In this document: positions 25,703 through 62,479 of the stretch, piece after piece | Layout: each line of letters begins with the position of its first letter | How positions within the stretch are numbered: position 1 is the first letter of the stretch | Assembly: GCF_040907265.1 (NCBI RefSeq) | Contig: NZ_JBFOHP010000002.1 | Span: forward strand, 2,442,501 to 2,506,500 | Reading direction: 5' to 3' | DNA length: 64,000 nt | DNA from: Streptomyces sclerotialus | Lineage (GTDB): Bacteria > Actinomycetota > Actinomycetes > Streptomycetales > Streptomycetaceae | Position numbers and translations under genes: made by a program | The notes under the pieces: generated by a model | Database searches by the model: none | Told to the model about the DNA's origin: nothing | Seen by the model: only the letters and a program-made list of their open reading frames with translations

Positions 25703-25838
25703 TCGATCACTCTAGGACGCGGCCCTTCCGGGGGCTGAGCACCGCGCGACGAGATCTCTGACACAGGGTCACGGTCCGGCCGCGCAGAGCACCCTTACGG
25801 CGCCTCGGGCACGCGTACTACTCTGACGGCACTTGTAC

Positions 25839-25933
25839 TCGCGGGAGCCCGGACGCACCGGGCTGAGAGGGAGGCTGCGGCGGCCTCCGACCGTACGAAC
25901 CTGATCCGGGTCATGCCGGCGAAGGGAGGGGCT
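25839..25933 (+). ncRNA. TPP riboswitch (THI element)
   Basis: Carries the conserved CUGAGA (from 25863), the second conserved segment GAACCTGATCCGGGTCATGCCGGCGAAGG (from 25898), and a variable stem of GGAGGC/GCCTCC between them. It lies directly before thiO. Its 3' end contains the likely thiO ribosome-binding site (GGGAGGGG), which points to translational control by thiamine pyrophosphate. Confidence 0.95.
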
Positions 25934-25941
25934 GGACACCT

Positions 25942-27168
25942 ATGCATCCACCTGCGCATTCATCAGCGGGGACGGCTGCCGGACACCCCGACGTGGTGAT
26001 CGTCGGGGGCGGTCTCACGGGGCTCGTGACGGCCTGGCGGGCCACTCAGCGGGGCCTGCGCACGACAGTGGTCGACCCGGAGCCGGGCGGCGGCGCCGCA
26101 CGGGTCGCGGCCGGCATGCTGGCCGCCGTCACCGAGCTGCATTACGGCGAAGAAACGCTCCTGGGGCTGAATCTCGACTCCGCCGCGCGCTATCCGGCGT
26201 TCGCCGCCGAGCTGGCCGAGGCGAGCGGCCAGGACCTGGGGTACCGGCAGTGCGGCACGCTCGCCGTCGCCCTGGACGCCGACGACCGCGCCCACCTGCG
26301 CGAGCTGCACGCGCTCCAGCGCCGCTGCGGCCTGGACTCGGAGTGGCTGACCGGCCGGGAGTGCCGGAAGCTCGAACCGATGCTCGCGCCGGGCGTACGC
26401 GGCGGGCTCCGGGTCGACGGTGACCACCAGATCGACCCGCGACGGCTCGCCACGGCCCTGCTGACGGCCTGCGAGCGGGCCGGGGTGGAGTGCGTACGGG
26501 AGCGGGCCGGGCGGCTCACGGTCGCCGACGGCCGGGCCACCGGCGTCGAGCTCGCGGACGGCACGCCGCTGCCGGCCGGGCAGGTCGTGCTGGCGGCGGG
26601 GAGCTTCAGCGGCCGGCTGGCCGGGGTGCCGGAGCACGTGCGGCCGCCGGTGCGGCCGGTCAAGGGCCAGGTCCTGCGGCTGCGGATCCCCGCGGCTTAC
26701 GGCCCGTTCCTGTCCCGCACCGTGCGTGCCGTGGTGCGCGGCGGCCCGCTCTATCTGGTGCCGCGGGAGAACGGTGACATGGTCGTCGGTGCCACCAGTG
26801 AGGAGCTGGGCTGGGACACCACGGTGACCGCCGGCGGCGTCTACGAGTTGCTGCGCGACGCGCACGAACTGGTGCCGGGCGTCACCGAGCTCCCCCTGAC
26901 CGAGACGATCGCCGGGCTGCGCCCAGGGTCCCCCGACAACGCACCGCTTCTCGGGCCCAGCGCGCTGCCCGGCCTCCTGATGGCCACCGGCCACTTCCGC
27001 AACGGTGTGCTGCTCACCCCGGTCACCGGCGACGTCATGGCCCACGCGCTGACCACCGGTGAGCTGCCCGAGGAGGCGCGGTCCTTCACGCCGCTGCGCT
27101 TCGGGCCCACGGCCGCCCCGTCCCCCTCTCCGGCGCCGCGCGCCGCACTCCAGGAGCAGACCGCATGA
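25942..27168 (+). CDS. thiO: Glycine oxidase ThiO
   Basis: 408-residue DAAO-family flavoenzyme that makes the iminoglycine needed for the thiazole ring of thiamine. The FAD motif is VVIVGGGLTGLVTAW (about residues 18-32); ARVAAGMLA and YLVPRENGDMVVGATSEE are typical. The C-terminal segment is ATGHFRNGVLLTPVTG. It is the first gene after the TPP riboswitch and its stop overlaps the thiS start (ATGA). Confidence 0.94.
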   Translation: MHPPAHSSAGTAAGHPDVVIVGGGLTGLVTAWRATQRGLRTTVVDPEPGGGAARVAAGMLAAVTELHYGEETLLGLNLDSAARYPAFAAELAEASGQDLGYRQCGTLAVALDADDRAHLRELHALQRRCGLDSEWLTGRECRKLEPMLAPGVRGGLRVDGDHQIDPRRLATALLTACERAGVECVRERAGRLTVADGRATGVELADGTPLPAGQVVLAAGSFSGRLAGVPEHVRPPVRPVKGQVLRLRIPAAYGPFLSRTVRAVVRGGPLYLVPRENGDMVVGATSEELGWDTTVTAGGVYELLRDAHELVPGVTELPLTETIAGLRPGSPDNAPLLGPSALPGLLMATGHFRNGVLLTPVTGDVMAHALTTGELPEEARSFTPLRFGPTAAPSPSPAPRAALQEQTA

Positions 27169-59503: not shown

Positions 59504-60910
59504 TCAGACCGCCGCGCCGCGGTCCGGGACGCAGCGCCCCTCCTCGGTCCGGTAGGACCACCGCGCGCCCTCGGTGACGAGTTCCTTGACCGCCCGTACG
59601 AACCGCTCCACGTGCTCATCGGGCGTCCCCGCCCCGAAGCTCACCCGGATGGCGTTCAGCGACCGCTCCCCCGGCCGGGCGTCCGGCGCGCCGCACTCCC
59701 CCGGGTCCTGCGGGTCGCTGCCCAGCAGGGTCCGCACGAGCGGGTGGGCGCAGAAGAGTCCGTCCCGTACGCCGATGCCGTACTCCGCGGACAGCGCGGC
59801 AGCGAAGTGCGAGCTGTTCCAGCCCTCGACGACGAAGGACAGCACGCCCACCCGGGCGGCGTCGTCGCCGAAGAGCGAGAGCACCTTCACCTGCGCCACC
59901 TCGGCCAACCCGGCCCGCACCTTCGCGATCAGCTGCCGCTCCCGCGCGACCAGCGCGTCGAAGCCCGCCTCGGTCAGCGCCTTGCAGGCGGAGGCGATCG
60001 CGTACACGCCGATCACGTTCGGGGAACCGGCCTCATGGCGGGCGGCCGTGGTGTGCCACTCGACCGCCACTCCCCCGTCCTCCCGGCGCGCGACCGTACG
60101 GCTTGCGCCGCCGCCGGCCAGGTACGGCTCGGCCGCCTGCAGCCAGTCGGCGCGGCCGGCCAGCACGCCGGCCCCGAAGGGCGCGTAGAGCTTGTGGCCG
60201 GAGAAGGCCACCCAGTCCACGTCCAGGCCGGCGATGTCGACGGGGTGGTGCGGGGCGAGCTGGGCCGCGTCCAGGACGATCCGCGCGCCGTGCGCGTGGG
60301 CCGCGGCCGCCAGTTCACGTACCGGCCACAGCTCACCGGTCACGTTCGACGCGCCGGTCACGCACACCAGGGCCGGGCCGTAGGGCTCACGCGTGGCGAG
60401 CGCCTTCTCCAGCGTGTCGACCGCCTGCCGCGGGGAGCTCGGCGCGTCGAGATAGGTGACGGTCAGATCGTCCCGCTGCTCCCAGGGCAGCAGCGACGCG
60501 TGGTGCTCGGTCTCGAAGACGAACACCCGGGTGCCCGCGGGGAGCACGCCCGCCAGCAGGTTGAGCGAGTCGGTCGTGGACCGGGTGAAGACCACCTGGT
60601 CCGCCTCGCGGCACCCCAGGAACTCCGCGACCGTCTTCCGGCTGTTCTCGAAGAGGTCGGTGGAGAGCTGGGAGAGGTACCCGGCGCCGCGGTGCACGCT
60701 GCCGTAGTACGGCGCGTACGCGGCCACGTCGTCCCACACCCGTTGCAGGGCCGGGGCGCTGGCGGCGTAGTCCAGCGCGGCGTAGGTGACCTCGCCGCCG
60801 GTGACGAGCGGGACGCGCACGTCACGGCCGAGGACCGGCAGCGGCGCGGCGGCGGTGCAGGCGGGGTCGGCGTCGGCGGAGGGGATGGCGGTTTCAGCGC
60901 GCACGGACAT
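59504..60910 (-). CDS. Class V aminotransferase (cysteine desulfurase-like) under SAM riboswitch
   Basis: 468-residue PLP enzyme of the NifS/CsdA fold. LDYAASAPALQRVWD at the N-terminus, TRSTTDSLNLLA, VLDAAQLAPHHPVDI (PLP Asp), and the Lys in FSGHKLYAPFGAG that binds PLP. A Cys equivalent to the SufS persulfide Cys is not clearly placed, so desulfurase activity is uncertain; other class V reactions are possible. Start ATG 60910. The 340-nt leader carries a SAM-IV riboswitch, a mini-ORF and a terminator, tying the gene to sulfur/methionine status. Confidence 0.88.
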   Translation of the reverse strand: MSVRAETAIPSADADPACTAAAPLPVLGRDVRVPLVTGGEVTYAALDYAASAPALQRVWDDVAAYAPYYGSVHRGAGYLSQLSTDLFENSRKTVAEFLGCREADQVVFTRSTTDSLNLLAGVLPAGTRVFVFETEHHASLLPWEQRDDLTVTYLDAPSSPRQAVDTLEKALATREPYGPALVCVTGASNVTGELWPVRELAAAAHAHGARIVLDAAQLAPHHPVDIAGLDVDWVAFSGHKLYAPFGAGVLAGRADWLQAAEPYLAGGGASRTVARREDGGVAVEWHTTAARHEAGSPNVIGVYAIASACKALTEAGFDALVARERQLIAKVRAGLAEVAQVKVLSLFGDDAARVGVLSFVVEGWNSSHFAAALSAEYGIGVRDGLFCAHPLVRTLLGSDPQDPGECGAPDARPGERSLNAIRVSFGAGTPDEHVERFVRAVKELVTEGARWSYRTEEGRCVPDRGAAV

Positions 60911-61050
60911 GGCGGAGTCTCCCGGAGGCGTAAAACCGTACGAACGTACGGAGTAGGCGAATGACACGCACGGGGCGTGGAAGGAACCCGCGGGCGCGCA
61001 CATGAACCTCGTACGACGCGTACAGAGGGGCGCCACAGGCGGGGTGTGGG

Positions 61051-61070
61051 AAAAAGGGGCCGACCGGCCC
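61051..61070 (-). terminator. Leader terminator between SAM-IV riboswitch and aminotransferase gene
   Basis: Minus strand GGGCC-GGTC-GGCCC followed by C and five T (61055-61051). The stem starts at the stop codon of the leader mini-ORF. It lies about 140 nt before the aminotransferase start. Confidence 0.7.
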
Positions 61071-61090
61071 TATCGCATTCGCTGCATCAC
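61070..61090 (-). CDS. Six-codon leader ORF (VMQRMR) after the SAM-IV riboswitch
   Basis: GTG ATG CAG CGA ATG CGA TAG, with GAGGGA (61104-61099) 8 nt upstream. Two internal Met codons and a stop codon touching the terminator stem suggest a regulatory leader peptide rather than a functional protein. Inference from arrangement. Confidence 0.5.
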   Translation of the reverse strand: MMQRMR

Positions 61091-61127
61091 GGAAGAGCTC
61101 CCTCGATAACCAGGATCCCTGGCGAGG

Positions 61128-61244
61128 GATCCGCGCTTGCCGCGGGCCTTGCTGCCTGCGGCCTGGTCATCACCCGGGGCACCCCGCCACGGACGGAGGG
61201 TTGCCGGACAGCAAGCCGGGGCCTGATCGCTGTCACTCGTGACC
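61128..61244 (-). ncRNA. SAM-IV riboswitch
   Basis: Minus strand begins GGTCACGAGTGACAGCGATC and contains the SAM core GCAACCCTCC and GGGGTGCCCCGGGTGATGAC (the conserved 3' block), then GGCAAGCGCGGATC at the 3' end. Order and sequence match the SAM-IV family of Actinobacteria. It is followed by a hairpin, a mini-ORF and a terminator before the aminotransferase gene. Confidence 0.9.
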
Positions 61245-61252
61245 TGGCGAGA

Positions 61253-61280
61253 ATCATGCCACATGATCGCGGAGCCGCAA
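61253..61280 (-). promoter_or_regulatory. Candidate promoter for the SAM-IV leader
   Basis: Minus strand TTGCGG (61280-61275), 16-nt spacer, CATGAT (61258-61253). Transcription would begin close to the riboswitch 5' end at 61244. Confidence 0.5.
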
Positions 61281-61414
61281 GGGGCGTCCGGGATGCGGAC
61301 ACCCCTCGGCCGCCGGGGAGGGTCGTCTCCCCGTTGCCGGGTGCGGCGCCGTTGCGGCTTGTCGCGCAGTTCCCCGCGCCCTTAGCGGGGCGCGGGGTCG
61401 CCTGCGCCTCCGGG

Positions 61415-62479
61415 TTACGCCTGCGAGACGGTCACCCAGCGCTCCAGGACGCGCTGGGCCGACCCGGAATCGATCGCTTCGGCGGCCCGGGCGATCCCGG
61501 CCGCGATCTGCTCCGTGAGCGGCGCGTCCGTCGGCTCCAGCGCGACCAGCGCCGCCGCCGAGTTCAGCAGTACCGCGTCCCGTACCGGGCCCGTCTCACC
61601 AGCCAGCAGACGGCGCGCGACGTCCGCGTTGTAGGAGGCGTCCGCACCGCGCAGCGCCTCTACGGGGACCAGGCCGATGCCCACGTCCCGCGGGTCGAAG
61701 GACTCCTCGCGGACCGCGCCGTCGCGCACCACCCAGACCCGGGAGGTGGTGGTCGTCGTCAGCTCGTCGAGGCCGTCGTCACCGCGGAAGACCAGGGACG
61801 AGTGCCCGCGCTCGGCGAAGACGCCGGCGACGATGGGCGCCATCCTGGCGTCGGCCACCCCGACCGCCTGGGACCGGACCCGGGCCGGGTTGGTGAGCGG
61901 ACCGAGGAAGTTGAAGACGGTCCGGATCCCCAGCTGGCCGCGCGCCGCACCCACGTGCCGCAGCGCCGGGTGGAACTTCACCGCGAAGCAGAAGGTGATG
62001 CCCGCCTCCTCGGCGACCTCCACCACCCGGCGCGGCGTCAGGTCCAGGTTCACGCCCAGCTTCTCCAGGACGTCGGACGCGCCGCTGGCCGAGGACGCGG
62101 CGCGGTTGCCGTGCTTGACGACCTTCGCGCCCGTGCCGGCGACCACGACCGAGGACATCGTGGAGATGTTGACGGTCTTGGCGCCGTCGCCGCCGGTCCC
62201 GACGATGTCCACGCTGGGGCCCGGTACCTCGATGAGGTTGGCGTGCTCGTACATCGCGCGGACCAGTCCGGAGATCTCCGCGACGGTCTCGCCCTTGGCG
62301 CGCAGGGCCACCGCGAAGCCGGCGATCTGCGCGTCGCTGGCCTCGCCGCGCATGATCCGGTCCATCGCCCACTCGGTGGAGTCGGCGGAGAGGTCACGGC
62401 CTTCGAGGAGGGCGTTCAGCACGCCCGGCCAGGTGCGGGCCGCCACGCTGCCGCCGCCATCCGGGGTCACAACGTTCAT
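61415..62479 (-). CDS. trpD: Anthranilate phosphoribosyltransferase
   Basis: 354-residue enzyme transferring the phosphoribosyl group of PRPP to anthranilate in tryptophan synthesis. The PRPP-binding loop is [18 protein letters not shown] (about residues 90-107). [21 protein letters not shown] and [11 protein letters not shown] are family blocks. ATG 62479 has AGGAG at suitable distance. No other trp genes flank it; it sits after qcrB with a terminator in between, an arrangement usual for streptomycetes. Confidence 0.95.

Follow-up and report, generated by a model that had tools for sequence, protein, structure and literature searches.

The closest described counterparts of the leader presented here come from M. 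tuberculosis, where an Mbox riboswitch, the rv1805A uORF and Rho are reported to form a switch in which the riboswitch acts on the uORF and the uORF on termination (PMC12810186), and where the B12 riboswitch interplays with uORFs at ppe2/metE (PMC11260477). A second group consists of ribosome-mediated attenuators, to which the cys, trp and leu leaders of Actinobacteria have been assigned (PMC1262725), as have leuL, trpL and metL of S. lividans (PMC8079986). In addition, SAM-I-Xcc from Xanthomonas is described as sensing SAM together with uncharged initiator tRNA (PMC7270179). Concerning SAM-IV in streptomycetes, the report on S. lividans lists it ahead of a gene for a cysteine desulfurase, and the mini-ORF described below is not among the eight leader peptides named there (PMC8079986).

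We analyzed a window of 64,000 nucleotides from Streptomyces sclerotialus, by which the whole 64-kb stretch of DNA is meant. The original prediction for this window comprised a complete SAM-IV aptamer on the minus strand, a linker hairpin, a Shine-Dalgarno (SD) switch, a mini-ORF and a U-tailed terminator. All of these elements were found, every coordinate was correct, and the leader is arranged as follows:

61128..61244, minus strand: SAM-IV riboswitch aptamer (RF00634, 112.9 bits, positions 1-116 of 116)
61189..61194, minus strand: loop strand GUCCGU of the PK-2 pseudoknot, complementary to GCGGAU at 61134-61129
61129..61134, minus strand: GCGGAU, the 3' strand of PK-2, which shares bases with the 5' arm of the linker hairpin
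61113..61132, minus strand: putative antisequestor linker hairpin GGATCCCT-CGCC-AGGGATCC, with arms at 61132-61125 and 61120-61113
61123..61129, minus strand: putative anti-SD TCCCTCG, complementary to CGAGGGA
61099..61105, minus strand: CGAGGGA with the Shine-Dalgarno sequence of the mini-ORF, read from the sequence
61070..61090, minus strand: mini-ORF GTG ATG CAG CGA ATG CGA TAG (MMQRMR and stop), of a conserved class
61057..61070, minus strand: hairpin GGGCC-GGTC-GGCCC, a candidate terminator that begins with the final base of the stop codon
61051..61056, minus strand: U-rich tail CTTTTT, a feature of S. sclerotialus that is not conserved
59504..60910, minus strand: the regulated gene, encoding a SufS-like class-V PLP enzyme, with the probable start ATG at 60910

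The completeness of the aptamer was confirmed with the covariance model, which matched over its full length and far above the gathering score of 38 bits, and 61244-61128 on the minus strand is the sole SAM-IV match of that search in the S. sclerotialus genome. The P3 loop is complementary to the 3' end, as PK-2 requires, and this pairing is nearly invariant, so that no covariation is seen; the 3' end of SAM-IV is the strand that PK-2 has been described to use (PMC6890682). The leader stands on the minus strand between a trpD-like gene with Glycos_transf_3 domains and the SufS-like gene. The product of the latter matches Aminotran_5 with 260 bits, and its best NCBIfam model is TIGR01979 (SufS family) with 258 bits, below the cut-off of 475 for that family. 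Scanning of 60890-61420 returned a single terminator-like site, GGGCC/GGCCC at 61070-61057 with CTTTTT (0.2 ± 0.4 in shuffled sequences), and no sigma-70-like promoter. The window also contains a TPP riboswitch on the plus strand (25831-25944, 66.9 bits).

Like the M. tuberculosis systems, this leader carries a riboswitch with a translational platform that would act on a short uORF and bring about premature termination within the leader, and a conserved short ORF with its SD was found directly 3' of the aptamer in 150 of 151 leaders and 77 of 80 loci. The M. tuberculosis systems differ in their ligands, in the larger conserved peptide of the Mbox uORF and in the termination-reinitiation at ppe2, whereas the SAM-IV leader has six codons, a fixed CGA-ATG and a hairpin beginning on the stop codon. 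With the actinobacterial attenuators it shares a short ORF, a pathway codon near the stop and an adjoining hairpin; the same can be said of the Cys-rich leader families NF042933, NF042934 and NF042936, to which it was likened by description, the mini-ORF having 6 codons against a scan minimum of 20 residues. Those attenuators, however, are not gated by a riboswitch. As in trp-type leaders, a pathway codon lies close to the terminator, the internal Met being two codons before the stop and the stem on the stop itself. No mutually exclusive antiterminator hairpin was seen in the fold of 61130-61051 and the ribosome itself would block the stem, and we therefore do not file the leader as trp-type. 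SAM-I-Xcc likewise combines SAM sensing and methionyl-tRNA status in one leader, but there the uncharged tRNA binds the expression platform directly, while in the SAM-IV leader the proposed second sensor would be the translating ribosome.

The conservation of the mini-ORF, proposed as a check by the original prediction, was examined across streptomycetes in a set of 151 distinct leaders, namely one listed locus from each of 150 of the 194 SAM-IV-positive Streptomyces genomes and one more; second SAM-IV copies were covered in a few genomes alone. The pattern NTG-NNN-NNN-CGA-ATG-NNN-TAG stands in register behind an SD in 150 of the 151, and as CGAATG was required by the motif search, its constancy is the same figure. 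The odd leader (L196) has the start of the enzyme gene in place of the mini-ORF. An independent set of 80 named loci, for which the enzyme rather than the riboswitch was the criterion (the best 80 of 542 relatives), contained the mini-ORF class in 77 cases, one of them with a TAA stop. An SD of the form GGAG or AGGAG lies 5-9 nt ahead of the start in 149 of 149 leaders. The original prediction had named a mini-ORF that is not conserved in relatives as a ground for its refutation, and the mini-ORF withstood this test. The presence of the mini-ORF and its SD in 61105-61070 is thus corroborated; its gating by SAM, which belonged to the same claim, we only infer.

The way in which these codons vary is that of a coding sequence with an extra nucleotide constraint, as judged from the leaders compared. 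The first codon is GTG in 144, ATG in three and TTG in two of 149 leaders, and 141 of 149 have CGN as codon 6, where each of the four third bases occurs. Codon 4 is always CGA, which accounts for only 30 of 2,625 Arg codons (1.1%) across the 80 downstream genes, and the stop is TAG in 149 of 149 leaders as against five of the 80 downstream genes. All columns from codon 4 through the stop are fixed except those of codon 6, and the flanks on both sides are variable. The commonest peptides are SKRMR (108 of 149) and NQRMR (11 of 149), and MQRMR, the S. sclerotialus type, occurs in six of 149. The original prediction had overlooked that the rare CGA and the internal Met codon are invariant, as well as the CGA-ATG of metY and metN leaders treated below. 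Among 40 loci from other genera of the family, whose leaders were read by eye, 19 carry the CGA-ATG motif, with ATG as start in seven, TTG in eight and GTG in four. A search of plasmids with the leader returned partial matches alone (11 records, best coverage 35%). We also considered GCGAATGCGNTAG as a widespread repeat and dropped it, since it is present in 56 of 61 genomes but nearly always once, the reversed control pattern being found in 15 of 61.

A stem follows the stop codon in 145 of 150 leaders and begins on the last base of that codon in 144. Hairpins of at least 4 bp starting 0-3 bases from the last stop base were found in 144 of 149 leaders, compared with 57 ± 6 of 149 letter-shuffled ones, and when the search was shifted 10, 20, 30 and 40 nt further on, the counts were 10, 21, 32 and 73 of 149. 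The U-tailed terminator predicted to begin at the stop codon is present here and its register is general, but TTTT within 10 nt of the stem is rare (12 of 144 leaders only). As the compared leaders suggest, a U-tailed intrinsic terminator is a trait of S. sclerotialus and not of the leader class; the S. sclerotialus hairpin itself is unremarkable in stability (-10.2 kcal/mol, z -1.18). The next 40 nt beyond the hairpin are rich in C and poor in G, with a median C of 0.475 and a median G of 0.15, and C minus G reaches at least 0.2 in 123 of 145 leaders versus 22% of coding control windows. Such a stretch would suit Rho.

The proposed SD switch is less firmly anchored. TCCCTCG and CGAGGGA are indeed complementary, the two pairings available to TCCCTCG exclude each other by position, and anti-SD:SD pairing of at least 5 bp can form in 105 of 146 leaders, but anti-SD and SD do not covary over 102 distinct pairs (657 per 1,000 permutations scored as high), and an SD pairs with its own anti-SD no better than the SD of another species does. 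The 3' strand of PK-2 overlaps the 5' arm of the linker hairpin, and the two should therefore compete. In an alignment of 35 diverse leaders (37 were picked, and L018 and L187 were left out), 95.7% of the cells of the linker hairpin are paired, and one pair of eight covaries by exchange of UA and CG in six of the 35. Some leaders keep the mini-ORF and lack the linker hairpin (L018, L197, L374, L396-L398, L400 and L401), a point against sequestration of the SD as originally drawn; their SD almost touches the aptamer.

Nor do the folding models decide the sign of the switch; their outcome depends on which bases are taken to be freed by SAM. The counts that follow omit five of the 151 leaders, which lack AAGYGCGG or a clear SD. 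The unpaired probability of the SD, modelled as bound versus free, differed by a median of 0.003, exceeding 0.2 in 23 and falling below -0.2 in 17 of 146 leaders. With two G of the aptamer end freed, the cost of opening the SD would make the SAM state the closed one by more than 1 kcal/mol in 91 of 146 leaders and the opposite in 19, compared with 24-47 of 144 for shuffled linkers in the same test; with GCGCGG freed, the counts were 55 versus 49 of 146. The isolated fold of 61136-61086 prefers the closed form. We take the direction of the switch from the leaders described next and from the way in which SAM riboswitches usually behave.

Four Streptomyces leaders (L196, L322, L334 and L339, the last from S. 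odonnellii) have neither mini-ORF nor hairpin; in these, the enzyme gene begins at the SD of the riboswitch. This direct form was also observed in 10 of the 40 loci from other genera of the family and, as SAM-IV placed at the SD of a gene, in many other Actinobacteria. Directly placed SAM-IV riboswitches of other Actinobacteria have the same aptamer and often the same SufS-like gene or metY, but the gene follows without an intervening mini-ORF or hairpin. Absence of the mini-ORF needs three changes on a tree of 135 enzymes, against a mean of 15.4 after shuffling; the tree was made with a quick method, has several long branches and does not include L196, L388 and L390. It fits one gain within the family and two later losses. 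Given the tree and the joint absence, mini-ORF and hairpin behave as a single insertion that separates a translational riboswitch from its gene. Provided that SAM closes the SD in the direct form and that the sign is the same in the inserted form, an untranslated mini-ORF must favor termination, and we regard this as the main argument for a relay. On the same tree, L285, titled Microtetraspora glauca, groups within Streptomyces and is probably a mislabelled strain. Pairs of SAM-IV riboswitches were also seen back to back on opposite strands, approximately 100-190 nt apart (G242:C16:1956-2291, G355:C1:1096541-1096906, G329:C104:70479-70827, G345:C2:180862-181262 and G377:C1:3091128-3091472), and they probably sit in divergent promoter regions.

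The internal Met codon persists in relatives without CGA. By eye we read MMA (GTG ATG GCG TGA) in L408-L410, all of one genus, and MQMMR (ATG CAG ATG ATG CGT TGA) in L415; these candidate ORFs of three and five codons, with Met only, stand behind SAM-IV in other genera and are known from the leaders alone. Equally by eye, L376 was found to have TGA directly after ATG, and L388 a shorter frame with a moved ATG start. A class search in which 82 SAM-IV loci were parsed, three of them extra Streptomyces copies, revealed short ORFs with CGA-ATG in five SAM-IV leaders outside Streptomyces, three recognized by script (MCIRRMCCR, MSCQRMPRR and MNHHRMRR) and two by eye (MCRCRMTGVAGA and MCCCRMQQVTGA). 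The gene behind all five is metY, four exceeding the NF005872 cut-off and the fifth being a contig-cut fragment.

Moreover, Streptomyces metN leaders, which have no SAM-IV, contain an in-frame CGA-ATG towards the end of the encoded peptide in 25 of 25 loci (24 genomes). In these loci (L266 and L350-L373) the peptide ends in a (C)MCRMCAF-like sequence with CGA-ATG, followed by the stop and GGGCCCC. The same in-frame CGA-ATG is shared by metL of S. lividans, the reported leader of metNIQ (PMC8079986). The hexamer of metN and of metY leaders alike shares its frame with other Cys/Met codons. The metN leader looks like a SAM-IV-free version of the same module, and from the in-frame recurrence in SAM-IV/metY and metN leaders CGA-ATG itself appears to be a module of sulfur leaders in which ATG is the likely sensor codon and the rare CGA a possible pause. 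Conservation in 150 of 151 leaders, the fixed rare CGA, the persistence of the internal Met and the recurrence of CGA-ATG elsewhere together make the mini-ORF almost surely a real, translated element. A different arrangement was observed in L096, L131, L394, L399 and L412-L414, where the SAM-IV aptamer precedes a longer leader peptide that has an R(R)xHxDL motif and ends in a Cys region; at 40.2 bits L096 exceeds the NF042934 cut-off of 27 bits, L131 and L394 fall below it, and the peptides of L399 and L412-L414 were read by eye.

Since a conserved mini-ORF lies between SAM-IV and a hairpin abutting its stop, the best reading, and in our opinion probably the correct one, is a relay from SAM-IV through translation of the mini-ORF to premature termination, that is, a riboswitch coupled in series to an attenuator operated by the ribosome. 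SAM-IV would determine whether ribosomes reach the SD at 61105-61099, which in this clade is the SD of the mini-ORF and not that of the enzyme gene. At low SAM, a ribosome would translate the mini-ORF and slow down at CGA-ATG or terminate on TAG; with the stop codon in its A site it would cover the 5' arm of the hairpin, and transcription would run on into the SufS-like gene 160 nt downstream. At high SAM the SD would be closed, the mini-ORF untranslated and the hairpin formed, and transcription would end, by an intrinsic mechanism in S. sclerotialus and perhaps by Rho where the U-tail is missing. The internal Met codon would probably be a second input, as a scarcity of charged Met-tRNA would stall the ribosome on the 5' arm of the hairpin and so act like low SAM. 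The anatomy, the conservation, the frame and the joint loss of ORF and hairpin are observations; translation, the sign, antitermination and Met sensing would follow from them under this reading. The relay had been the central claim of the original prediction, and the conserved ORF between SAM-IV and the stop-abutting hairpin speaks for it, while the rarity of the U-tail, the missing covariation of the SD and the folding models do not. In S. clavuligerus, RNA/Term-seq detected a premature transcript ahead of a class-V PLP enzyme gene; SAM-IV was predicted in it, and its read drop ranked among the most extreme reported (PMC8269248). This would agree with termination in the leader, the likeness consisting in SAM-IV and the type of gene alone.

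A plain relay needs no fixed CGA-ATG, and only a role for Met or for pausing would account for the whole constraint. We tentatively suggest, as a possibility to which we give appreciable though not preponderant weight, that SAM-IV gates a Met-codon attenuator, so that SAM would be read by RNA folding and, in series with it, Met-tRNA charging by a ribosome that slows at CGA-AUG, the two acting on the stop-codon hairpin, and that CGA-AUG may be a pause-and-sense module shared by the SufS-like, metY and metN leaders, with or without a riboswitch.

Other explanations would assign the conserved elements different roles. Many riboswitches act as ordinary transcriptional switches, and aptamer and U-tailed hairpin are both there, so the SAM-IV fold could itself set the 61070-61057 hairpin with the mini-ORF as no part of it. 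Against such a switch, which we consider very unlikely, stand the near-invariance of the mini-ORF with its start-codon exchange and synonymous freedom, the lack of an antiterminator pairing that uses the hairpin arms in the 61130-61051 fold, and the hairpin missing along with the ORF in the four exceptions. Hardly more plausible is that AGCGAAUGCGNUAGGGC is a non-coding RNA motif, protein-binding or structural. CGAATG is fixed in its nucleotides, even at the synonymous third base of CGA, and the hexamer recurs in other leaders; but the start codon varies among ATG, GTG and TTG alone, the third base of codon 6 is free, L376 and L388 change as reading frames would, relatives without CGA retain a frame of start, Met and stop, and the metN/metY hexamer has further Cys/Met codons in its frame.

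Two further explanations accept translation of the mini-ORF and dispute what it is for. The retention of CGA-ATG amid varying neighbors would also be expected of arrest by the nascent peptide or the codon pair at Arg-Met (CGA-AUG), independent of Met-tRNA charging, for instance by a ligand-sensing peptide, with SAM-IV gating loading only. We find this improbable, because CGA is lost in MMA and MQMMR while Met remains, and a nascent chain of 3-4 residues is very short for classical arrest. Somewhat better placed, although still unlikely in our judgment, is that translation of the mini-ORF mainly holds Rho off the C-rich stretch (polarity relief) and that the stop-codon hairpin is secondary. The C-rich, G-poor 40 nt after the hairpin (123 of 145 leaders versus 22% of control windows), the rarity of the U-tail and the use of Rho by the reported Mbox/uORF switch (PMC12810186) are in its favor, but an ORF of six codons shields little RNA, S. 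sclerotialus does have a U-tailed hairpin, and the fixed register of the stem on the stop codon needs a local explanation.

With the relay as the preferred reading, SAM-IV itself and riboswitch-to-uORF relays in M. tuberculosis are known, and what is probably new is a Met micro-ORF that hardly varies, the hairpin on its stop codon and, probably, a second sulfur input. No SAM-IV/uORF relay was found in our literature search, outside of which the original description of SAM-IV stands, and an earlier account is possible. If the relay is true, one of the standard SAM riboswitches of Streptomyces would be a two-step device whose direct target is a micro-ORF invisible to annotation pipelines, which would explain a transcriptional read-out from a translational riboswitch. 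Six near-invariant codons, along with natural leaders that have neither ORF nor hairpin, make the relay testable by single-codon changes. Finally, the shared CGA-ATG hints at an undescribed rule for methionine sensing in actinobacterial leaders.
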